Under the pieces are notes generated by a model. That model was not told the DNA's origin. It was given only the letters and a program-made list of their open reading frames with translations, and did no database searches. From assembly GCF_000021945.1 (NCBI RefSeq), contig NC_011831.1:2617353-2681352 (forward strand): a stretch of DNA of 64,000 bases, read 5' to 3'. The DNA is from Chloroflexus aggregans DSM 9485 (lineage in GTDB: Bacteria > Chloroflexota > Chloroflexia > Chloroflexales > Chloroflexaceae). Below are positions 7,046 to 59,245 of the stretch, piece after piece (the stretch's first letter is position 1; each line of letters starts with the position of its first letter). The position numbers were made by a program, and so were the translations under genes.

Positions 7046-8317
7046 ATGCTCGATAACATCGCTAGCACTGAACTCTTTTACCAATTCGGCCTTGCCCTAC
7101 TCATCGGCGCGCTCATTGGCCTACAACGCGAGTATGCTCACGGTGCTAGCAGTGATCTTTTCGCCGGTGTACGCACATACGCAATCATCGGTGTGATCGG
7201 CTGTGCAGCCGGTTTGGCCGCGATCACGCTCCAAGCACCGGAAATCTTTGCGGCGATGGCCCTAGTAATAGGTGGATTACTGATTGCCGCATACGTTCTC
7301 AGTCACGGACGCGATGGCCCCGGTCTCACCAGCGAAATGGCTGTTCTCATCACGTTCCTGTGTGGAGGAATGGTCGCGTGGGGCTACGGAACGGTGGCAA
7401 CGGCAATCGGGGTGGCAATTGCTATTCTGCTAGCCCTGAAAGCCCGTCTACACGGCTTAGCGCGCCAACTCAGCCCGCAAGATATGCAAGCTTCGCTCAC
7501 GCTGGCCGGTATCAGTCTCATTGTTTTGCCGGTGTTACCGAATACGCCGATTGGGCCAGCTCCATTGGACGTGATTAATCCGCAGAAGATATGGCTACTC
7601 GTTGTGTTAATCTCGACGCTGAGTTTCAGCGGCTACATACTGCATAAAATTATCGGCACTACTCGCGGCATTGCGCTCACCGGTCTGATTGGTGGCATCG
7701 TTTCTTCAACTGCGGTCACCCTCAGTAATACCCAACGCAGCCGGATCACGCCGGAATTGAGTCAGGCATACGCACTGGCCATCTTGCTGTCGTGGGCGGT
7801 AATGTTTGTGCGTGTCGGGCTACTCACCGGCGCGATTGCGCCGGAGGTCTTACAGCGATTATGGCCGGTGTTACTGGCAGGAGGCAGCGGCTGCCTCATC
7901 TGGGGAGGATGGCTGGCGCGCCGGTCACGCCAGCATGAGGGAACGCCGTTGAATTTTGGCAACCCGCTTGAATTGCGTTCAGCAATCGGATTCAGTCTCC
8001 TTTACACTACTATCCTTGTCGGCGCCAATTTCGCCCGTACCCAGTTTGGTGAGACCGGACTCTTCATTACCAGCATCTTCGGCGGACTTGTCGATGTGGA
8101 TGCAATCACGTTATCGCTCAGCGAGCTAGCAATCACCTCTGGCGGGCTATCCAATCGGTTAGCGGCCAGCGCTATTGGAGTCGCCGTTTTGACCAACACA
8201 TTGATAAAAGGGGGAATTGCGCTGGTCGGTGGGAGTAGCCGGTTGCGCCGTTCAATCACACCGGCGTTATTGCTGATCACCGGATCCATACTAGGCACAC
8301 TCTTCTGGCCGTGGTAA
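7046..8317 (+). CDS. MgtC/DUF4010 family membrane protein
   Basis: A 423-residue protein with about 11 hydrophobic segments. The N-terminal part matches MgtC/SapB (LLIGALIGLQREY near residue 20, then VRTYAIIGVIG). The C-terminal part matches DUF4010, with SGYILHKIIG and the Ser/Thr-rich GGIVSSTAVTLS motif around the middle. Members are inner-membrane proteins with proposed roles in Mg2+ or other ion stress; no substrate is established. It begins 18 bp after the CPBP gene, so the two may be co-transcribed. No strong ribosome binding site is seen. Confidence 0.75.
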   Translation: MLDNIASTELFYQFGLALLIGALIGLQREYAHGASSDLFAGVRTYAIIGVIGCAAGLAAITLQAPEIFAAMALVIGGLLIAAYVLSHGRDGPGLTSEMAVLITFLCGGMVAWGYGTVATAIGVAIAILLALKARLHGLARQLSPQDMQASLTLAGISLIVLPVLPNTPIGPAPLDVINPQKIWLLVVLISTLSFSGYILHKIIGTTRGIALTGLIGGIVSSTAVTLSNTQRSRITPELSQAYALAILLSWAVMFVRVGLLTGAIAPEVLQRLWPVLLAGGSGCLIWGGWLARRSRQHEGTPLNFGNPLELRSAIGFSLLYTTILVGANFARTQFGETGLFITSIFGGLVDVDAITLSLSELAITSGGLSNRLAASAIGVAVLTNTLIKGGIALVGGSSRLRRSITPALLLITGSILGTLFWPW

Positions 8318-8333
8318 TATCTCATTACGCTGG

Positions 8334-8780
8334 CTACCAGAGGAATGGCACCAAACGCCACGATCGCTGCTGATACGCACGATAGCCGGGAATAGTTGCC
8401 ACGAGCATCTGTTCTTCATAGCTCAGCTTGGTTACTAACACAACCAGTAAGGCTAGCCACAAGGCCCAGCGCCACAATGTCGGTACATTCAGGACCCACG
8501 CTAATGTTACGATAAGCAGGCTAGCATACATCGGATGGCGGATCAGACGGTACGGTCCGGTACTAACCAGCTCGACCCGTGGCAACGGATCGGGCAATAC
8601 CGAGAGCCGATGCAGGCGCATCGTGAGGAGAGCCCACAAGCTAAGGCCCAGCCCGGCGGCCAGCAATCCTAGCAAGAGCGGAGAGGATGGCAGGAGTGGC
8701 CCGCTGAAGGCGATGGCACCCAAACAGGCAAACTGACCAAACACCAAACCAAAGGAACGAAACGGCGAACGGATCATCAT
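8334..8780 (-). CDS. Isoprenylcysteine carboxyl methyltransferase-like membrane enzyme
   Basis: The protein is 148 residues with four to five hydrophobic helices and the family signature [18 protein letters not shown], followed by a C-terminal [16 protein letters not shown] segment that binds S-adenosylmethionine in ICMT/PEMT-type enzymes. Bacterial members methylate small lipids or unknown acceptors. The start at 8780 has GGGAGA 8-13 bp upstream. It is divergent from ruvA with only 38 bp between starts, so promoters must overlap or be very compact. Confidence 0.75.
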
Positions 8781-10409: not shown

Positions 10410-10985
10410 TTACGACTTCTCACCGGAGCGATCGCGGTCGTCCAGATCGAGCGTGTTGATAAAATTGCGGAAGATCGACAGTGAATCCTCGTTAAGCTCG
10501 GGTTCCGCTTCGGTTTCAGCCTCGGGCTTCGGTTCTTCGCTGCGGCTTGCAGGAGTGGGGAGGGTTGCATCGGACTGTTCCTCTTCATCAAAGAGGACAC
10601 CAGCTTGTTCAAGCACATGCTCAGCCACGAAGATGGGTGCTTGGACCCGCTCAGCAAGGGCGATAGCGTCACTCGGACGTGCATCCAATTCGAGGGTACG
10701 TCCTGCCTGATCAATGATAATCCGCGCGAAGAATGTATTGTCACGGATATCGTTGATATAGATCTGGCGAACCAAACCGTCTAACTCGCTAATAGCAGCC
10801 TTGAGCAGATCGTGGGTCATCGGACGTTGTGGTTCGTGACCTTGAATAGCTGACGCAATGGCGTCGGCTTCAAACTGGCCGATCCAGATGGGCAAATAAC
10901 GATTGCCTTCAGTTTCGCGGAGAACGACGACCCGGCTCTGCGTCAATAGGCTGACACGGATACTATCGACAACGACTCGTATCAT
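10410..10985 (-). CDS. Bifunctional nuclease (BFN/DUF151) family protein
   Basis: The 192-residue protein starts MIRVVVDSIRVSL and holds one BFN domain (residues about 1-130: YLPIWIGQFEADAIA, RPMTHDLLKAAISELDG, DARPSDAIALAERVQAPIFV). A low-complexity acidic tail rich in E and P and a short conserved-looking end follow. Plant and bacterial relatives have been reported to show DNase/RNase activity, but the physiological role is unclear. I use ATG 10985; the longer frame to 11021 adds a poor N-terminus. Confidence 0.8.
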   Translation of the reverse strand: MIRVVVDSIRVSLLTQSRVVVLRETEGNRYLPIWIGQFEADAIASAIQGHEPQRPMTHDLLKAAISELDGLVRQIYINDIRDNTFFARIIIDQAGRTLELDARPSDAIALAERVQAPIFVAEHVLEQAGVLFDEEEQSDATLPTPASRSEEPKPEAETEAEPELNEDSLSIFRNFINTLDLDDRDRSGEKS

Positions 10986-51430: not shown

Positions 51431-52555
51431 CTAATCGGCAAATGCGCTCTGCTGTTGGGCCGCCCGACGCGCTGCGCGACGGTCGGCGACGATCCGGCGG
51501 GCGTGACGCGGGGCTGATGTGTGCATCGGTATGGCCGGTACGGCGAGTGCTAAGATGGTAGTGCCGATGAGCAGATCGAAGGTGGGGGGTATGATTTCAG
51601 GAAACGGGTAGTAGACAAGAGCTGTTGGTTTGAGTAGCCGCAACAAGGCGATCACGATGACTGCACCGATAGCGGCCAGACATGTGATGGTATCGTGGTG
51701 GTGCCACCGTTCTCGGCGGTACGTCGTGCGAGATACGGTCCGGCTGAGTTGGTGGGCTGACCACCAGACGAGTGCTAGCCCGATGCCGCCAAATGGAGCC
51801 ATAATCGGTAGAACGGTGGATCCAGCCCAGAGCCAGCTTATTAATGTGGTAGTGAGCATACTAAGCCCAAGCAACAGGCCGATCATACGACCGGTACTTG
51901 GTTTGGTGAGCGTGCGTCCGTATCCGCGTGCTTCTAGTGCTTCGGCGAGTTGCAATGCACGTTCGAGGCTCCCGGCTAACAGTGGTCCGACGAGCGCCCA
52001 CCAGCTACGGATGCTGCCAAAACGGTGGCCACGTGCGCGTTGCGCGGCGATAATTTCTTGCCCACTGCGCACTAGTCCCGGTGCGAAAGCGATGGCAATT
52101 GTGACGGCTAATCCGGCGTGAAAGAGTGAGCGTGGCACGAGACGCAGCAACCGATGGTGATCAACTAAGGCATTGAATGCGCCGAAGATCAGCAGAAGCG
52201 TCCATAAGCTCAATCCGCGCGTTGCTCCCCACGCTAATGCTTCGGCGGTGATCGGTCCACCCAAGACAATCCCACCTAACCATACCGGCAATTGGTATGC
52301 CGGTGCGTTGAACAATACTGTGGCCCCGCGTGGCCCACCCACTGTGATCGCCGCAAAAACAATGTAACTGAGCCAGATCACTGCTCCGGCACGGGCAAAC
52401 AGTGGGAAACTACGTGCCAGTGGGCGGTCATCACGGCGCGCTACGAATACATAGCCGACCGCTAATATGATCAACAGGTGGTAAAGTGGGTGTGGGGATA
52501 GTATTGCGATGGCTGTGGTAGCAGCCAACCACACCAGCCACGTGCGGGTATGCAT
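51431..52555 (-). CDS. ECF transporter transmembrane subunit EcfT (CbiQ family)
   Basis: EcfT is the membrane scaffold that couples a substrate-binding S subunit to two ATPases in vitamin importers. The 374-residue protein has multiple helices and the two coupling motifs AAQRARGHRFG and AEALEARGYGRTLT, whose A-R-G triplets contact the ATPases. After them come extra hydrophobic segments (about residues 220-340) and a basic Ala/Arg tail, so it is longer than typical EcfT. AAGGA precedes ATG 52555. As the last gene of the cobalamin-riboswitch operon it most likely serves B12 or a precursor. The S subunit and ATPases are not in the window. Confidence 0.82.
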   Translation of the reverse strand: MHTRTWLVWLAATTAIAILSPHPLYHLLIILAVGYVFVARRDDRPLARSFPLFARAGAVIWLSYIVFAAITVGGPRGATVLFNAPAYQLPVWLGGIVLGGPITAEALAWGATRGLSLWTLLLIFGAFNALVDHHRLLRLVPRSLFHAGLAVTIAIAFAPGLVRSGQEIIAAQRARGHRFGSIRSWWALVGPLLAGSLERALQLAEALEARGYGRTLTKPSTGRMIGLLLGLSMLTTTLISWLWAGSTVLPIMAPFGGIGLALVWWSAHQLSRTVSRTTYRRERWHHHDTITCLAAIGAVIVIALLRLLKPTALVYYPFPEIIPPTFDLLIGTTILALAVPAIPMHTSAPRHARRIVADRRAARRAAQQQSAFAD

Positions 52556-52641
52556 GCGCAATCCTTCTTCGTTGTCTTTTGGGCGCGGGGCGGGCGATAG
52601 CCTACATCGGCGGTACGCACCGTCGCCGATCCACTACCTCT

Positions 52642-53397
52642 CTATGACAGGTTCACCGTCAGTACGGCCAGCGCCACAACTTCACCGATTTCACAGAGCG
52701 CACCATAGGTGTCGCCGCTGAGACCGCCCAGATCGCGTACCCACCAGCTTGCCAGCAGATGCGCAACTCCTAACACGAACACTGCAGCCACGATGCCGGT
52801 GATACCGGCGATGAGCCATGCCGCACCGAGCATCATGGCCGAAGACAACCAGAGATCATGTTGACGTACTTGCGCGTTAAAGGTCCGGCCCAGCCCACCT
52901 TCGCGGGCAGCGGGAAAGCGATAGATTCCATAACAATCGGCCCATCGCCCTAGCATCGGGGCCAACAGCAACGCCGGCCATACGTTTGTCGCTTCTGCGA
53001 TGAGTGCTACTTTGAGCATCATCAGCACGATCAGCGCTAATGCACCCATCGCCCCGATCCGACTATCTTTCATGATTTCGAGTTTGCGTTCACGCGACCG
53101 CCAACTCATCACCGCATCGAAGGTGTCACTCAGACCATCGAGATGGAGACCTCCGGTAATGATGCCCCAGATCGCCATCACCATCACTGCCGCTGTTAGA
53201 TTGCCCCACAGCGGGCGGGCTATGAGATCGGTAGTTACCAGCGCACCGCCAATGACCAATCCGGCTATTGGAAACCACGGGATGGCCCGTGCCACACTCT
53301 GTTCATCCATTGGCGGTATGCCGGGTAGGGGGATAATGGTCAAAAAGCGGATCGCTTCGATGAAGCCATTAACCGAGCGGGCCGGCGATTCGTTCAT
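52642..53397 (-). CDS. cobS: Adenosylcobinamide-GDP ribazoletransferase
   Basis: CobS joins adenosylcobinamide-GDP and alpha-ribazole (phosphate), the last assembly step of cobalamin, in the membrane. The 251-residue protein shows AIRFLTIIPLPG at the start, GGLHLDGLSDTFDAVMSW with its Asp-rich metal motif, and SRIGAMGALALIVLMMLKVA. GGAG lies about 8 bp before ATG 53397; the ATG at 53409 lacks a ribosome binding site. It follows cobC closely, consistent with salvage of imported corrinoids. Confidence 0.93.
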   Translation of the reverse strand: MNESPARSVNGFIEAIRFLTIIPLPGIPPMDEQSVARAIPWFPIAGLVIGGALVTTDLIARPLWGNLTAAVMVMAIWGIITGGLHLDGLSDTFDAVMSWRSRERKLEIMKDSRIGAMGALALIVLMMLKVALIAEATNVWPALLLAPMLGRWADCYGIYRFPAAREGGLGRTFNAQVRQHDLWLSSAMMLGAAWLIAGITGIVAAVFVLGVAHLLASWWVRDLGGLSGDTYGALCEIGEVVALAVLTVNLS

Positions 53398-53412
53398 AGA
53401 AAGCTCCATGCG

Positions 53413-54024
53413 CTAGCGTATCGGTGGTACGCTGTTAACCGTGCGGATAATGATCGATGAGCCGTATATGTCAAGGGCAGTCATGCTACCCAGATCGATC
53501 CGCCAACGCCAATGTTCGGCTACCGGTGTCTGACAACAGAAACAGAGTACCAATTGGATAGGGGTAGCATGGGTGATAACGATCGCTCGTCTGCCGGCAT
53601 AGTGTGAGCGTAGTTCGTGCCAGGCTTCACCAACGCGAGTCGCTACATCGGCCAGACTCTCGCCACCGGTCGGTTTGCCGTTGATCCCGTTGGCCCAGCG
53701 CGCTTGTGCATCACCGGGAAAACGTTGGAGTACCTCGCGGTACGTCAATCCTTCCCATTGTCCCTGATCGATCTCGCGCCAACGCAGGTCTTCGACTATG
53801 GCAATCGATGGGCGGTCTTGGGTGATGGCAGCCGCCAGCGCGCGGGTGCGTTCGGTCGGACTGACGATGGCGTGGGTAAACGGCAATGCGCGCAAGCGAC
53901 GGACGACCGCTTCGTGCTGTCGCTGACCGTAGGTGGTTAGCGGACTATCACTGTGGCCGAGATAGCGACGGGCACGATTAGCAACGGTTTGGCCGTGACG
54001 AACGAGCCAAATGCTGGTGCGCAT
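53413..54024 (-). CDS. cobC: Histidine phosphatase, probable alpha-ribazole phosphatase
   Basis: A 203-residue member of the phosphoglycerate mutase-like histidine phosphatase family: the phospho-acceptor motif WLVRHGQTVANRARRYLGH, the second Arg region VSPTERTRALAAAI, the acid in REIDQGQWEGLTY and the second His in VITHATPIQLV. Such proteins act as CobC, removing phosphate from alpha-ribazole 5'-phosphate or cobalamin phosphate. Adjacency to cobS in a B12-controlled operon supports this; the family alone would not. Confidence 0.8.
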   Translation of the reverse strand: MRTSIWLVRHGQTVANRARRYLGHSDSPLTTYGQRQHEAVVRRLRALPFTHAIVSPTERTRALAAAITQDRPSIAIVEDLRWREIDQGQWEGLTYREVLQRFPGDAQARWANGINGKPTGGESLADVATRVGEAWHELRSHYAGRRAIVITHATPIQLVLCFCCQTPVAEHWRWRIDLGSMTALDIYGSSIIIRTVNSVPPIR

Positions 54025-54111
54025 AAGTAAGCTCTTCTTGGTCGATACGGTCGGCAGATGAGAAGATTGTGCTACCCGAACGACACTATCTGCACTTGCC
54101 CATCTGTTTAA

Positions 54112-54969
54112 TCAAGTAGCACCCCTCCGTCTGAGCGTCACGACAATTGCTCCGAGCAAGAGGGCTACTAATGCAATAAAACCCCACCACTGGCTGCTAT
54201 CGCCTGAAGTAGGCGATGTTACTTGGGAAACCCCGCCTGCCGGCAGTACGGTTGCAGTTGCCGATGGTGATGGTACGGGCGTGGACGTAGGCATTGCCGG
54301 TGCGGTCGCTGTTGCCGATGGTACAGGCGTGAATGTGGGCATTGCCGATGCAGTCGCAGTTGCCGATGGTACAGGCGTGAATGTGGGCATTGCCGGTGCG
54401 GTCGTGGGTCGCGGTGGCGTCTGCGTTGGCATAACAATCGCCGTGGCTGTCGGCTCGGACGTAGCCGTCGGTGTTGTAGTCGGCTCTGCTACCGTCTCTC
54501 GGAGACAGACATCGGCGAAGGTGACATCAGGTGGAACAGCCCCACCACTGGCGTCACCTGGCCCCCATGCCCAACCGTGTAAATCACCATCACTGACCTG
54601 CACATTACTCGCACCGAGGTTAGAATAGCGCCACCCACTTTGATCTCGCAGGTAAAAGGCCCAGTAAACTACCCGGCCCTGCTCGCGGGCACAGAAGCAG
54701 CTTGTAGCCGGGTAGTCACACCCTTCGTACCCGATTTTGCAAACCGCAGCGCCAATACTGCTCTGCTGACTAATCACCGGCAAGCCACTGCGTTCAAGGA
54801 GTTCGAGACCACTGATACTCGGCTCGCCAAACGTCACGCATGTTGTAAAGACCTCACCGTTACCAAAGCGAACCACTACCCCGGCGCGGTTGACCGCCGG
54901 TTGGGCGGTGGCTACGCCGGAGAGGAGGGTGACTGCGAACAAGATCAACAGAAACCGCAATGATCGCAT
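54112..54969 (-). CDS. Membrane-anchored DUF4430 (transcobalamin C-terminal-like) protein
   Basis: A 285-residue exported protein. A signal peptide (RFLLILFAVTLLSGVATAQP) is followed by one globular domain (about 30-165). The domain has SGLELLERSGLPVIS, a Cys cluster (CKIGYEGCDY and CFCAR), YWAFYLRDQSGWRYSNLGAS and VSDGDLHGWAWGPGD. The Y-W and D-G-D-x-x-x-W features match DUF4430, the domain shared with the C-terminal part of transcobalamin and intrinsic factor. A Thr/Pro/Ala linker with 16-residue repeats follows, then a membrane helix and basic tail (RRR). ATG 54969 gives the best signal peptide; a GTG at 54996 is possible. It follows the alpha6/alpha6-barrel gene at once. Confidence 0.78.
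   Translation of the reverse strand: MRSLRFLLILFAVTLLSGVATAQPAVNRAGVVVRFGNGEVFTTCVTFGEPSISGLELLERSGLPVISQQSSIGAAVCKIGYEGCDYPATSCFCAREQGRVVYWAFYLRDQSGWRYSNLGASNVQVSDGDLHGWAWGPGDASGGAVPPDVTFADVCLRETVAEPTTTPTATSEPTATAIVMPTQTPPRPTTAPAMPTFTPVPSATATASAMPTFTPVPSATATAPAMPTSTPVPSPSATATVLPAGGVSQVTSPTSGDSSQWWGFIALVALLLGAIVVTLRRRGAT
54261..54410. repeat. 48-bp coding repeats in the linker
   Basis: Near-identical units at about 54261, 54315 and 54363 encode the MPTFTPVPSATATA-type linker of the DUF4430 protein. Steps are 54 and 48 bp, both multiples of three, so copy number can change without breaking the frame. Confidence 0.85.
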
Positions 54970-55000
54970 AGGTAACCGGTAAGAGCGTTCGGTCACGAAT

Positions 55001-56062
55001 TCACACTTGGGCCGACTTGCGTCGCAGCGCTACCCCGGCAACCAGCAATCCCAACCCGCCGACAACCAACAACGGTAGAGGCAGGATCGGTTCGCCACCG
55101 GTGCGTGGTAACGTGCCGGCAGGTGCGATCAAGCTCTGCGCGGTCGGGATCGTCGTGGTTGCGACCGGCAAAGTCCGACGGGCCAGCGCGGGAATGGCTT
55201 GATAGGTAGCAAGTGCGTTGTCGTCGGGCATTGCATCTTGATAACGGAACGCGCCACTACTATTCTGAAATGCGGCTAAAGCGCTCAACGGAGTGGCATT
55301 ACCTTGCTTCCACGCTGCGTCGTCCAGGTTTTCGCCCAGTGCAAGAATGGCCTGAACGACCGCTGCCGTCGAATTGGCGTCACTGGCGTTACCGAACGCC
55401 GACGTTTGTGAGTAGGGGAACCCACCATCGGGGTTTTGCTGACCACGCAGATAGGTCCGTGCTGCTGTCAGTGCATCGGCGGCGCGGGCATAACCACTCA
55501 ATGCCATCACCGCCAGGCTCGTGGTATTGGTGTCGCTGCCGGTTGCTGCTGCGCCATCAAAGCTCCAACCACCGTCACGCAATTGCAACGCGATCAACCG
55601 ATTGATGGCGGCTGCCGGTGGTTCAACCCCCATCGCTTTGATGGCGAGCAATGCCAGGGCGTGTCCGTAGACATCACTCCCGTACTGGCCGGTTGCCGGA
55701 TCGTAGAAAGTGCCGAGTTGACGGGCCAAATTCACTCCACCGAAGTTGAGTGGATCGCGCTGGGCGGCGACGGCAGCCAAAATGACCTTCGCAGTCGCGC
55801 CGGCCGAAGAGGTTCCATACGTGGCCGCTTGTCCGGCGAGATAGGTAACGGCGTTCGCCGGTGGTTGTTGCCCGCCGGCGACAAAGGCAACGATTGCATC
55901 GGCGGTATCACCGGGACCAAAACCGGCAAAACTGCCATCAGCTTGTTGTTGACCGGCAACCCATGTCAATGCCGCTTCAATGGCGTTGGTCTGGGCAATT
56001 ACCGGTTGCCAGACGACGAGACTCATAATGAGTGTGACGAGCAGGGCATACATGCGGCGCAT
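55001..56062 (-). CDS. Surface alpha6/alpha6-barrel protein with LPxTG-like anchor
   Basis: A 353-residue exported protein. After a signal peptide (ALLVTLIMSLVVWQPVIAQ) come five or so prenyltransferase/terpene-cyclase-type helical repeats (ALTWVAGQQQADGSFAGFGP, LIALQLRDGGWSFDGAAATG, YLRGQQNPDGGFPYSQTSAF, LAAFQNSSGAFRYQDAM). These form the alpha6/alpha6 toroid also used by the N-terminal half of intrinsic factor and transcobalamin. The end is LPRTGGE, a membrane helix and RRKSAQV, like a sortase substrate. The catalytic DxDD or QW context of true cyclases is missing. First gene after the cobalamin riboswitch, so a corrinoid-binding role is inferred. Confidence 0.8.
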   Translation of the reverse strand: MRRMYALLVTLIMSLVVWQPVIAQTNAIEAALTWVAGQQQADGSFAGFGPGDTADAIVAFVAGGQQPPANAVTYLAGQAATYGTSSAGATAKVILAAVAAQRDPLNFGGVNLARQLGTFYDPATGQYGSDVYGHALALLAIKAMGVEPPAAAINRLIALQLRDGGWSFDGAAATGSDTNTTSLAVMALSGYARAADALTAARTYLRGQQNPDGGFPYSQTSAFGNASDANSTAAVVQAILALGENLDDAAWKQGNATPLSALAAFQNSSGAFRYQDAMPDDNALATYQAIPALARRTLPVATTTIPTAQSLIAPAGTLPRTGGEPILPLPLLVVGGLGLLVAGVALRRKSAQV

Positions 56063-56134
56063 AGCAAATCATGTCCTTTCGTTGCAGATCGAACCTACCC
56101 TTCCAGCTCACGCGCAGATCACGCCCGTTGATCG

Positions 56135-56168
56135 CAATAAAACACCCTCCACGCCGTATGGAGGGTGT
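56135..56168 (-). terminator. Leader terminator of the riboswitch operon
   Basis: On the minus strand ACACCCTCCA-TACGGCG-TGGAGGGTGT forms a 10-bp stem followed by TTTTATT. It lies between the riboswitch and the first gene, so it is very likely the B12-controlled expression platform. Confidence 0.85.
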
Positions 56169-56214
56169 GAATCGACGAAGGCAAGAATGCATGCCAATCT
56201 TGCGACCGCCTCAC

Positions 56215-56395
56215 TCCCTTACCAACGCGGGTGTGATAGCGAACGAGTAGGGACGGGCATTCTGGCTCGTCGCCAATGGCGACCTACAGTAGCGTGGACT
56301 GCGCCGGCCTTTGACCGGACTTCCCCCAATTAAGCCCTTCGCTTCCTCCGGGCTCCCTACCGGTGGGGTGATACATACCCCACAATTGCTTATAT
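56215..56395 (-). ncRNA. Cobalamin riboswitch
   Basis: Reading the minus strand, the aptamer core has the known order of conserved blocks. GGGGAAGTCCGG comes first, then GGCCGGCGCAGTCC and ACGCTACTGTA (about 56328-56284). The B12 box variant GAGCCAGAATGCCCGTC follows at 56268-56252. A further 5' stem (GTGGGGT/ACCCCAC-like) precedes it. A sigma-70 promoter lies just upstream and a terminator downstream. B12 binding would be expected to turn the five-gene operon down. Exact ends are approximate. Confidence 0.88.
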
Positions 56396-56407
56396 TCAAT
56401 TGCCGCG

Positions 56408-56436
56408 ATAGTACCACACATGCAACTGTTTGTCAA
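56408..56436 (-). promoter_or_regulatory. Sigma-70-type promoter of the B12 operon
   Basis: On the minus strand a perfect TTGACA (56436-56431), a 17-bp spacer and TACTAT (56413-56408). The predicted start near 56401 would place the riboswitch at the very 5' end of the transcript. Confidence 0.75.
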
Positions 56437-56546: not shown

Positions 56547-57593
56547 TCAGCGTAATTGCGCCAAAACATCGGTCAACACAGCAATCGCCCGCTCGTACTC
56601 GACCAACGCGACGTGTTCGTCGGGGGTGTGGTCAAGCCGTGAATCGCCTGGTCCATATGCGACAATCGGGCATTGCCACACAGGTCCGACGACGTTCATA
56701 TCGGCAGTACCGGTTTTATGCAGAAAGGCCGGTTGACCACCATGTTGCCGGATGGCGCGGACAAAAGCGCTGGCGAGTGGCGTGGTGCGCGAGCTTTGAA
56801 ACGCGGGGCATGCACCTTCAAAAGAGATGTCGGCTGAGCCGGCCAAATGACGGAGAGTCTCGGCGAGTGCTGCCGGGTCAATACCGGGTGGTAAGCGTAG
56901 GCCGACGGTTGCTTCTACCCATTCCGTTATCCCGTCGCTGCCGCTGCTCACCCGGCGCAGCGAGGGGATGAGTTGATCGAACAATCGCTCACGTCCGGCA
57001 TTGACAGTTTGGCAGTAGTCCTCGACTGCACGCCAGAAGGCGACCATCACTTCCGGCGCAGCTCGTTGCTCACCGGCGCTATGCGCTACCGGTTGGTGGT
57101 AGCGGTAGTGGGCGAGTAATCGTCCCTTATAACCGAGCGTAACCCGATCCCAGCCGCTCGGTTCCCCAATGATGCAAAAATCGGGACGGTAACGATCGCG
57201 GGCTGCATGTGCTCCACGTGAACTGGCTGCCTCTTCTTCGGTAGCGCCGATAATGATTAAGCGACAACGTAAGGTTCCGGCTAACTCGGCTTGCCGTGCC
57301 GCCCACACAAACGTTGCCAACGGCCCTTTGGCATCGACCGCTCCTCGTCCGTACAGCTTACCGTCGACGATCCGTACCGGTATCTCGCCGGGTACAGTGT
57401 CGATGTGGCCGAGGAGCACGACCAATGGCCCGTCTGTTCCCACACACCCAACTGCACTGCCCGACTCATCGACGAATGCTTCCCAGCCGAACGCTGTCAT
57501 CTGCTCGACCATCATCTGTACCGCTGCCGCTTCCTGCCCCGACAGCGACGGCGTTTGCAAGAGACGGATGAGAAAGGTTGTCGCTTCATTCAT
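56547..57593 (-). CDS. lysK: [LysW]-lysine/ornithine hydrolase (M20 family)
   Basis: A 348-residue zinc peptidase that releases lysine (or ornithine) from the LysW carrier protein in the alpha-aminoadipate or LysW-arginine route. Metal-site motifs are VVLLGHIDTVPG and YGRGAVDAKGPLATFV, with the Glu pair in IIGATEEEAASSRGA. The C-terminal HKTGTADMNVVGPVW and VAYGPGDSRLDHTPDEH are characteristic of LysK rather than ArgE or DapE. ATG 57593 has GAAGGGTG upstream. The other pathway genes are not in the window. Confidence 0.87.
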   Translation of the reverse strand: MNEATTFLIRLLQTPSLSGQEAAAVQMMVEQMTAFGWEAFVDESGSAVGCVGTDGPLVVLLGHIDTVPGEIPVRIVDGKLYGRGAVDAKGPLATFVWAARQAELAGTLRCRLIIIGATEEEAASSRGAHAARDRYRPDFCIIGEPSGWDRVTLGYKGRLLAHYRYHQPVAHSAGEQRAAPEVMVAFWRAVEDYCQTVNAGRERLFDQLIPSLRRVSSGSDGITEWVEATVGLRLPPGIDPAALAETLRHLAGSADISFEGACPAFQSSRTTPLASAFVRAIRQHGGQPAFLHKTGTADMNVVGPVWQCPIVAYGPGDSRLDHTPDEHVALVEYERAIAVLTDVLAQLR

Positions 57594-57700
57594 TATCGAA
57601 CACCCTTCGCAAAACGTGGTATGCAAGATGTCTTGTCCGCTGTTCGTGGTGGGTGACTGCTGCCCACCAGCCTAGGGTTGTAGTGGTGAGGACTGACACT

Positions 57701-57721
57701 CCCACGGCTAAAGCCTGTGGG
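57701..57721. repeat. IS right-end hairpin
   Basis: CCCACGGCT-AA-AGCCTGTGGG gives nine pairs with one bulge. It overlaps the tnpB stop (57708). The decayed element at 50 kb has a related hairpin in the same flank context (CTCCCACG). Confidence 0.75.
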
Positions 57722-58850
57722 GTTCTCGGTTCTGCGGCTCGCCCAACGGCTGAGCCTCCCCGAAGGCGGTGCCCCCGCCCTTCTTTAGGATAGTAAGCGC
57801 AGCATTATGATCGCGGTGCAACGCACAACCACAATACGGGCAGGAGTGCCAGCGAACGGCAAGCCGTTTGGGGACGAACTCGCCACAGTGCGCGCATACG
57901 TGCGACGTTCCGGCAGGGTTGACTGCCACCACGACTCGCCCAGCACGTGCAGCCTTGGCGAGCAGGATATTCAGAACGAAACCCCATCCGGCGTCGGAGA
58001 TCGATTTGGCAAGGGGATGGTTCCGTACCATCCCCCGAATGTTCAGTTTTTCAACCGCAATATGGTCATCCTCATTGACCGGTGCGCGGGCGATTGTGTG
58101 GGCGAAGTCCCGTCGCGCCCGCTTGACCTTCAGGTGAGCGTTCACAAGCAATGTGCGTGCCTGACGGGAGCGATTGCTGCCCTTCACGCGACGAGCGAGC
58201 CGTCGTTGCGCCTGTTTCAGCGTGCGTTCGGCGGCGCGATAGGAGCGCGGGTTGGCAATCTGTACGCCGTTCGACAGCGTCGCAAACGACTCACGTCCAA
58301 CATCAATCCCTACCGACCTGCCGGTTGGCGGGAGTGGCGACGGTGCAACGTCACACACGATGTGTGCGTACCATCCATCCGCGTTGCGAACGATGATACA
58401 GATGTTTGGCGTGCCCTCAACCGGGCGATCGTTGTACAGCCGAATAGCGCCGATTTTGGAGAGGACGAGCCGTCCCTGCTCCCGCTTGACGCCGTTGCCC
58501 CACCGGGGATAGGTGAAACTATCGTACCGGCCCCGCCCTTTGCAGCGCGGATACCCCGCCTTTTCGCCGGCGTTCACCCGCCGAACGAACGCTTGAAACG
58601 CGCGGTCTCCTCGACGCACGACATCCTGCACCACTTGAGAGTGGACACGCTGCAAATATGGCACCTCCCGTTTCAGCATAGGCAGGCTGGCGCATTGGCG
58701 CGCAAAGCCGATGGACTCGCCACGTTCCCGATAGGCGGTCTTGCGCTCGCTCAAAGCGTGGTTATAGCGTTGGCGGCAAGTTTCCACCGTCTCAGAAAGA
58801 CACGCTCCTTGAGCAGGTGTCGGACGTAACGTGGAGACAAACGTCTTCAT
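57708..58850 (-). CDS. tnpB: TnpB RNA-guided nuclease (IS200/IS605)
   Basis: A 380-residue TnpB with all catalytic sites: Asp in GIDVGRESFATLS, Glu in AVEKLNIRGM and Asp in LHRDHNAALTIL. The zinc finger is CAHCGEF with CPYCGC. The N-terminal region MKTFVSTLRPTPAQGACLSE and VDVVRRGDRAFQAF-like WED/REC sequence are normal. TnpB proteins cut DNA matching the RNA guide made from the element right end and help keep the element in the genome. It is translationally coupled to tnpA. Confidence 0.92.
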   Translation of the reverse strand: MKTFVSTLRPTPAQGACLSETVETCRQRYNHALSERKTAYRERGESIGFARQCASLPMLKREVPYLQRVHSQVVQDVVRRGDRAFQAFVRRVNAGEKAGYPRCKGRGRYDSFTYPRWGNGVKREQGRLVLSKIGAIRLYNDRPVEGTPNICIIVRNADGWYAHIVCDVAPSPLPPTGRSVGIDVGRESFATLSNGVQIANPRSYRAAERTLKQAQRRLARRVKGSNRSRQARTLLVNAHLKVKRARRDFAHTIARAPVNEDDHIAVEKLNIRGMVRNHPLAKSISDAGWGFVLNILLAKAARAGRVVVAVNPAGTSHVCAHCGEFVPKRLAVRWHSCPYCGCALHRDHNAALTILKKGGGTAFGEAQPLGEPQNREPHRL

Positions 58851-59245
58851 CCGCGTGTGCGCTGCGCTTCGCTATACCGCCGGATGGTATCGGCGGAAAC
58901 GTGTCCGGTCGTTGACCAGACATACGAACGAGACCCCAAGGACGGCATGCGTTGCAGGAAAGGAAACTCCTGTCGCACGATGCGGCTGGTTTTGCCCTTG
59001 AACCGCCCAACGATGTGGTTGGGTACCCAGTGCGGCGTTGCCGAAACAACCAGAGGGAGATGGTCAGGCATGATTTCAAGCGCCACCATCTCACACTCCA
59101 GCTCAGACGCCGTCTCACGCATCAGTTCATCCAGGCGTGTTGTTCGGCGGTCACCTACCATCTTCCGTCGCCGCTTGGGGCACCAGACCAGGTGGGAGTT
59201 GATGAGCAACACGCACGGATCGTTGGAGTGGTACATCTGTTTCAC
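58847..59245 (-). CDS. tnpA: Y1 transposase TnpA with altered HUH motif
   Basis: A 132-residue IS200-type transposase, full length for the family. The nucleophile Tyr124 is present (TIRRYSEAQ). The metal-binding HUH motif, normally H-V-H, reads H62-L-P64 (MPDHLPLVV), so the second His is lost. The codon is CCT, a short mutational step from a His codon. Loss of one HUH ligand should prevent or strongly weaken metal-dependent strand cleavage. The rest is collinear with the family. Confidence 0.88.
   Translation of the reverse strand: MKQMYHSNDPCVLLINSHLVWCPKRRRKMVGDRRTTRLDELMRETASELECEMVALEIMPDHLPLVVSATPHWVPNHIVGRFKGKTSRIVRQEFPFLQRMPSLGSRSYVWSTTGHVSADTIRRYSEAQRTRG

Follow-up and report, generated by a model that had tools for sequence, protein, structure and literature searches.

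How does a bacterium bring scarce corrinoids from its surface to a membrane importer, and could it do so with the folds that animals use to carry vitamin B12? This question is raised by an operon of Chloroflexus aggregans DSM 9485, located in a stretch of 64 kb (hereafter the window, positions 2617353-2681352 of the 4.68-Mb single-contig genome). The operon consists of five co-directional minus-strand genes separated by gaps of at most about 90 bases, which encode an alpha/alpha-barrel protein, a beta-domain protein, a histidine phosphatase, CobS, and the EcfT subunit of an energy-coupling factor (ECF) importer. The observations brought to bear on the question are this gene content, a cobalamin riboswitch, the recurrence of the arrangement in relatives, natural fusions of the two surface proteins, and the fold match of one such fusion. 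In our view, the operon is likely a B12-repressed corrinoid acquisition system, in which a surface pair would bind a corrinoid and feed an ECF importer, with CobC and CobS finishing salvage, and the barrel and beta-domain proteins are probably a transcobalamin-like capture pair serving that importer.

The operon, its leader and its recurrence in relatives

A single promoter and a cobalamin riboswitch ahead of five minus-strand genes had been proposed in a preliminary description of this DNA, and both the sites and the gene calls agree with it (Table 1). The aptamer exceeds the 31.5-bit gathering threshold of its Rfam family and is the sole Rfam match at gathering score in the window, the genome holding one further cobalamin riboswitch. 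Its folding energy is not lower than that of shuffled sequences (z 0.33), and the stretch bearing the terminator-like hairpin (56125-56200) folds at -29.5 kcal/mol (z -4.0 versus shuffles). An aptamer followed by a terminator hairpin fits a transcription-terminating OFF switch, and the leader may act as such, so that low intracellular B12 would let transcription through the terminator. The promoter site is a consensus match, of a kind met eight times in the scanned stretch where 2.2 would be expected.

The three downstream genes also agree with the earlier assignment. CobS and EcfT score above their cut-offs (for EcfT, 47.4 bits against PF02361, threshold 25, E 2.4e-12), and the best NCBIfam match of the phosphatase is the alpha-ribazole phosphatase family TIGR03162, at 142.3 for a cut-off of 162.9; since this cut-off is not reached, the label "CobC-type" is given because of the operon context.

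Table 1. Leader elements, genes and protein segments of the operon (window positions).
Feature	Position	Strand	Remark
Sigma-70-like promoter	56408..56436	-	TTGACA-17-TACTAT, TG ahead of -10; 10/12 consensus positions
Cobalamin riboswitch aptamer, RF00174	56234..56374	-	40.8 bits, E 7.1e-07
Intrinsic-terminator-like hairpin	56142..56168	-	11 pairs and T tail; putative expression platform of OFF switch
Exported, LPXTG-type anchored alpha/alpha-barrel protein (SCO2321-like)	55001..56062	-	Proposed corrinoid-binding lobe; fold predicted from relatives
LPRTG sorting motif of barrel protein	55097..55111	-	Residues 318-322; hydrophobic segment and basic tail behind motif
Exported beta-domain protein (SCO2322-like), C-terminal membrane anchor	54112..54996	-	Likelier start ATG 54969 (by eye)
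Conserved beta domain and linker start	54466..54891	-	Row in the alignment used for fold prediction
CobC-type histidine phosphatase	53413..54024	-	His_Phos_1; TIGR03162 top NCBIfam match
CobS, adenosylcobinamide-GDP ribazoletransferase	52642..53409	-	TIGR00317, 149.4, cut-off 110
EcfT (CbiQ family), ECF importer transmembrane coupling subunit	51431..52561	-	PF02361; likelier start ATG 52555

Is the association of the two surface proteins with B12 genes peculiar to this genome? Three sets of loci, all excluding the window itself, were compared: set A (20 Chloroflexales loci, found via the barrel family), set B (20 loci across the phylum, found via the SCO2322 family, which was matched in 35 of 301 genomes), and set C (80 loci, the best of 170 that barrel motifs detected in named genomes, 14 of the 80 being Patescibacteria), some genomes of A and B recurring in C. 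For the genome scan, a tight barrel alignment was used, a broader one having proved too diverse. A cobalamin or adenosylcobalamin riboswitch at gathering score precedes the barrel gene on the same strand in 47 of the 54 loci scanned, i.e. 18/19 in A (L043 left out), 15/20 in B, and 14 of the 15 scanned among the 80 of C. No barrel is recognised by the barrel model in the set B locus L092, L101 offers only 71 bases of sequence upstream of the barrel frame, L032 and L095 have no riboswitch even at a permissive threshold, L172 and L099 have none at gathering score, and the match in L086 falls below threshold (22.7 bits).

The partner genes recur in the same way. Among loci with at least 1.2 kb downstream (set C without Patescibacteria), 17/17 (A), 18/19 (B) and 49/55 (C) have a beta domain that is either fused to the barrel or encoded no more than 3 kb away on its strand, the set B exception being L099, whose beta genes lie farther off. 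Of the loci with 4 kb downstream (again without the Patescibacteria of C), 14/15, 14/18 and 37/42, respectively, carry a same-strand ECF gene at a distance of no more than 9 kb. Operons complete with riboswitch, barrel, beta domain, EcfS, EcfT and the paired ATPases EcfAA' are present in L082, L088, L090, L096, L097, L125, L126 and L146, and other relatives bring further corrinoid genes, such as CobS, CobU and EcfS with the pair in Ardenticatena (L119), or CobO adjoining EcfAA' and EcfS in L117. The set extends to a Streptomyces plasmid (L199), where profile models recognise a beta-barrel-barrel protein, a beta domain, EcfT, EcfAA' and EcfS; the riboswitch of that plasmid (7663-7738, minus strand) precedes the neighbouring divergent gene and not the ECF operon. 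The anticipated recurrent linkage of the gene pair to B12 genes is thus borne out by riboswitches, ECF genes and Cob genes in relatives, and such recurrence in tens of loci leads us to reject a chance co-location.

Two side observations concern these loci. The divergent gene of the Streptomyces plasmid (L199:6113-7525, minus strand) appears by eye to encode a further secreted barrel-like protein under the cobalamin riboswitch, and a gene resembling a Nudix hydrolase (by eye) lies between EcfT and EcfAA' in L027, L029 and L035.

Two surface proteins and the domains of animal B12 carriers

The barrel protein (353 aa) has a signal-peptide-like start, a weak similarity to the SQHop/Prenyltrans families of Pfam, and a distant match to the NCBIfam family SCO2321 (E 5.4e-32; 111.2, below the curated cut-off of 300). 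Its description as an anchored protein holds, given the LPRTG motif, the hydrophobic segment and the basic tail, and four sortase-family matches are present in the genome. The transcobalamin family PF01122 has no match in the window barrel, one relative reaching E 0.027 (below cut-off), and a profile of Chloroflexota barrels matches transcobalamin-1 in the PDB co-linearly but weakly (E 0.27). The top single-domain fold and profile matches are squalene-hopene and drimenyl diphosphate synthases, which would suit a surface enzyme of the squalene-hopene cyclase/prenyltransferase fold, the riboswitch then reflecting a B12-dependent physiology and not transport. We regard this as very improbable: the protein looks exported, anchored, and linked to ECF and Cob genes, and the DxDD motif is absent from it, occurring in only 2 of 211 barrel domains (overlapping loci counted). 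A terpene cyclase identity is rejected because of the missing DxDD.

The second protein opens with a signal-peptide-like segment, followed by a conserved domain of some 130 residues; behind this come a PT-rich linker and a membrane anchor at the C terminus, seen by eye as a hydrophobic segment and RRR. An alignment of 30 beta domains shows six invariant G/W positions and several Cys that are almost invariant. It had been described as an anchored DUF4430 protein; the anchor stands, but the family assignment does not, since PF14478 (DUF4430) has no match in this protein or across the whole genome, and matches one of the 30 aligned beta domains, the window's included, at E 0.16. There are no Pfam matches at E 0.01, and the nearest named family is SCO2322 of NCBIfam (E 1.1e-7; 32.4, below the cut-off of 85). 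Compared with a profile of genuine DUF4430 domains, the beta-domain profile gives a weak, suggestive match (probability 29%, E 0.0006). A profile of five genuine DUF4430 domains finds nothing in the PDB, and the search of a viral fold library stayed empty at an E threshold of 0.001. A profile of twelve proteins combining a barrel with DUF4430 matches, in contrast, the beta domain of transcobalamin-2, at the position of DUF4430 (E 0.0085). DUF4430 is named "transcobalamin-like C-terminal" in InterPro, and therefore the link between DUF4430 and the transcobalamin domain is not itself new.

To what extent do the two domains together resemble an animal carrier? The protein modelled with AlphaFold2 was a natural barrel-barrel-beta fusion of a relative (L088, residues 76-775), with an alignment of 47 rows that includes the beta domain of the window (3 barrel-barrel-beta, 14 barrel-barrel and 30 beta rows, out of more candidates). 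As domain-only rows were often misplaced by MAFFT, row sets were tested until the beta rows landed on the beta domain; a prediction of the 857-residue fusion without alignment was discarded (predicted local distance difference test, pLDDT, of 36). The resulting model has a pLDDT of 93.3 and a predicted template modelling score of 0.89, and its first 14 matches in a Foldseek search of the PDB are 12 transcobalamin chains, one intrinsic factor and one haptocorrin (E 6e-10 to 1e-7), with transcobalamin-type alignments spanning the length of both domains. The structural match to both transcobalamin halves is therefore found for the fusion of the relative, not for the window's own proteins. The fold and the order of both domains in the model agree with the animal carriers, but their mutual placement does not: although matched in sequence order, the beta domain lies elsewhere relative to barrel 2. 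It may sit on barrel 1, the model may represent an open ligand-free form, or the geometry may be truly different.

Several results weigh against reading the operon as a transcobalamin-like uptake system. The Foldseek lead of the transcobalamins is narrow, rank 15 being a squalene-hopene cyclase at E 1.1e-7, and their rows have a root-mean-square deviation (rmsd) of 21 to 22 Å and target TM-scores of 0.45 to 0.48. VIA-align superposes model residues 299..677 (barrel 2 and beta) on residues 11..399 of intrinsic factor with Z 20.6 and an rmsd of 21.3 Å, the program warning that model residues beyond 568 are barely tested. The beta-domain match comes from the transcobalamin and intrinsic-factor rows only, and single barrels of terpene cyclases reach Z 24.9, above intrinsic factor. 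With an rmsd of about 21 Å, the packing of the domains is either different or flexible. Moreover, the model is that of a relative's fusion and not of the window's pair, and the beta-domain profile finds no transcobalamin in the PDB, its match there being a spurious one to collagen (E 0.0049). In four loci (L145, L170, L175 and L177), a barrel is accompanied by ECF genes but by no recognised beta partner. Finally, the genome has a cobamide synthesis cluster (CbiD, CbiC, CbiX, CobD/CbiB, a DBI_PRT phosphoribosyltransferase and a CobN-type chelatase), located downstream of its second riboswitch, so that uptake need not be the sole source of corrinoids.

Some of these results suit a variant of the preferred explanation, in which there is no clamp: the barrel alone binds the corrinoid, and the beta-domain protein serves as an adaptor by which the loaded barrel docks on the ECF importer. 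The ECF-linked barrels without a recognised beta partner, the model's beta domain lying away from barrel 2, where intrinsic factor has it, and a fusion of beta domain and EcfT in one open frame all speak for such an adaptor. This fusion (L161:4848-6677, from one metagenome-assembled genome only) is a single frame of 609 residues comprising a beta domain, a PT-rich linker and EcfT. The alignment of barrel and beta domain to transcobalamin in sequence order, the repeated fusions of the two, which suggest a joint function, and the existence of single chains of a barrel and a genuine DUF4430 argue in the other direction, and we consider the adaptor unlikely while giving it appreciable weight, its probability overlapping with that of the explanation of which it is a version.

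These fusions were collected rather than surveyed, 30 loci of one search being annotated. Barrel-barrel-beta chains are found in L088, L090, L204 and L224, beta-barrel chains in L185, L193 and L191 (and weakly in L179, E 0.0003), and beta-barrel-barrel chains in L165, L214-L218, L220 and L221, the L217 protein resembling that of L165. The split pair of separate, adjacent surface proteins emphasised in the preliminary description is indeed encoded by two genes in the window, but it is only one of several arrangements. Another one is met in three Chloroflexota with small genomes (0.9 to 1.5 Mb), which we would guess to be Dehalococcoidia-like, where a lipoprotein-like gene with a genuine Pfam DUF4430 directly precedes EcfT, EcfAA' and EcfS, with a barrel gene ahead of it in two of the three. 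A single chain of one barrel then a genuine DUF4430, i.e. the order of transcobalamin, occurs in L251 and in Patescibacteria, Pfam recognising DUF4430 in 10 of 12 aligned proteins.

Of four genomes with a genuine DUF4430, three have no riboswitch at E 0.001 and the fourth has one below cut-off. In L252 (G099), a genuine DUF4430 match (7658-8227) lies just downstream of a sub-threshold cobalamin riboswitch (23.8 bits), and is followed by a 189-residue membrane protein (about 8215-8748) that resembles an ECF S component by eye. A winged-helix DUF7839 protein is encoded upstream of the barrel/DUF4430 genes in L249 (8107-8895, by Pfam), and in L251 (7263-8057) and L248 (5812-6615) by sequence similarity; it perhaps replaces the B12 riboswitch in genomes without a recognised one. 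Patescibacterial single-barrel proteins are found in L189 (7863-9452 and 9942-10376), L183, L184, L186-L188, L190, L192, L194, L195 and L198; most have a genuine DUF4430 behind the barrel, and L189 and L192 also have a separate small DUF4430 gene nearby. The models recognise no EcfT, EcfS, EcfAA', CobS or CobC beside these barrels, and no ECF match in the 14 Patescibacterial loci. The beta model gives a partner in 1 of 11 loci with room for one, weakly, having missed the DUF4430 domains that Pfam detects there. No B12 link was found for the Patescibacterial barrel-DUF4430 proteins, among which riboswitches were not searched.

Importer and cargo

If the pair binds a corrinoid at the surface, which importer would take it up? 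The earlier proposal of an ECF importer with EcfT encoded downstream is supported as far as EcfT goes, but EcfS and EcfAA' are not in the operon and are found elsewhere in the genome. An unlinked EcfAA' (G000:C1:3045643-3047238) is 61% identical to the one lying downstream of EcfT in a relative, the runner-up candidate reaching only 37%, and EcfS has a single match, also unlinked (G000:C1:2953498-2954283). The EcfS family is present in 23 of 26 genomes (chosen from sets A and B, with the window's own). In two of the three others, G011 and G224, the pair adjoins a FecCD/BtuC-type permease and ATPase; G224 also has binding-protein genes, one of which separates the barrel gene from a cobalamin riboswitch lying some 2 kb upstream, and G011 has no PF01497 match on the contig holding the pair. 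The third, G120, is the genome whose locus has no recognised barrel. The pair is thus found beside either type of importer, and the common factor of both is B12.

The sequence of events would then be as follows. The barrel and beta-domain proteins, whose signals and anchors point to export and retention at the surface, would together bind a corrinoid and pass it to an importer made of the operon's EcfT and of the EcfAA' and EcfS encoded elsewhere. CobC and CobS would act on the lower-ligand loop of the salvaged corrinoids, which may be incomplete, and either finish or remodel it, CobU being present in a relative. Each of the two surface proteins would have its counterpart in one domain of intrinsic factor, transcobalamin and haptocorrin.

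Could the cargo be another B12-related small molecule, such as cobalt, a lower-ligand base or alpha-ribazole? In favour of this, EcfT is a CbiQ-family protein, CobC and CobS act on the lower-ligand loop, and alpha-ribazole ECF importers exist in Firmicutes. A corrinoid is nevertheless favoured by the S components of relatives, which match PF12822, the family of vitamin-type S components, by the corrinoid-acting CobU and CobO in related operons, by the Foldseek match of the surface domains of a relative's model to corrinoid carriers, and by the pair of G224, which accompanies a FecCD/BtuC-type importer under a B12 riboswitch. The cobamide synthesis cluster, furthermore, carries its own CbiQ and ATPase, which leads us to reject cobalt uptake as the role of the operon, and we hold any such other cargo to be improbable. 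A profile of the S components finds no CbrT structure in the PDB, and gives a weak match to FolT (E 0.045).

In a last alternative, the role of the pair would be competitive or protective: corrinoids would be stored or hidden at the surface, without being fed to an ECF importer. This would agree with certain barrel loci in which no ECF genes are in view, and with fusions (L185 and L193, by eye) that have no obvious anchor. The beta-EcfT fusion and the ECF genes in the same stretch in 37 of the 42 non-Patescibacterial loci of set C with 4 kb downstream tie the pair to import, and storage without import seems to us quite improbable.

Outside the operon, an M20-family peptidase gene (56547-57626, minus strand) precedes the riboswitch, and has the same place in other Chloroflexus loci. 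Upstream of both lie adjacent TnpB-type and TnpA-type transposase-like frames of the IS200/IS605 type by eye (57708-59245, minus strand). Long repetitive frames outside or before the real genes (L050:9555-10526 and L005, about 10600-10927) suggest intergenic tandem repeats.

Known systems and the place of the pair among them

The animal proteins transcobalamin, intrinsic factor and haptocorrin, which rank first among the PDB matches of the L088 fusion, combine an alpha/alpha barrel with a small DUF4430-related beta domain, as the preferred reading proposes for the pair. The window has, in contrast, two separate anchored proteins instead of one barrel-then-beta chain (an order met in L088, L090, L204 and L224), bacterial relatives often have two barrels, and the domain placement in the model differs. 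Animal carriers use an endocytic receptor, whereas the bacterial pair would serve a membrane importer. In Streptomyces, the NCBIfam families SCO2321 and SCO2322, whose names carry no function, are distant matches of the window proteins, which score below the curated cut-offs, and a similar gene set is found on the Streptomyces plasmid.

Among importers, ECF-CbrT is a B12 ECF importer of Lactobacillus delbrueckii (PMC5997447). The window system shares with it EcfT, paired ATPases and a PF12822-type S component, its own cargo being a presumed corrinoid. ECF importers bind their substrate via the S component, to which the window system adds two extracellular proteins. The FecCD/BtuC-type genes beside the pair in two relatives are a point in common with BtuFCD-type importers, but the window operon lacks any BtuF-like gene, and neither protein of the pair is related to BtuF. 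A capture of B12 ahead of the importer is known for BtuG and related surface lipoproteins of Bacteroides (PMC6143338). The likeness lies in B12 being caught at the surface before the importer is reached. BtuG proteins are not known to be related to the barrel/beta pair, and their setting is the outer membrane. No description of an ECF importer served by a transcobalamin-like surface pair was found in the titles and abstract starts of the open-access papers searched, most subscription papers and preprints lying outside this scope. The parts are thus of known kinds (transcobalamin-type domains, ECF importers, B12 riboswitches), and their combination was not met in the open-access literature examined.

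A broader proposal, to which we give slightly less than an even chance, is that bacteria have transcobalamin-like extracellular corrinoid binders acting as a detachable, two-lobed substrate-binding protein for ECF importers, the animal carriers being a late, soluble, single-chain version of an older prokaryotic pair. The split pair, the fusions of varied order, the beta-EcfT fusion, and the single-chain barrel-DUF4430 proteins of small-genome Chloroflexota and Patescibacteria would then be stages or variants of it. If the capture system is what it appears to be, many Chloroflexota and at least one Streptomyces would take up B12 with the folds of human intrinsic factor and transcobalamin, and a function would be provided for SCO2321 and SCO2322, which have no functional name, and for an S-component family. 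It would also be an example of an ECF importer working with extracellular binding partners, and would make it possible to test where the animal B12 carriers came from.

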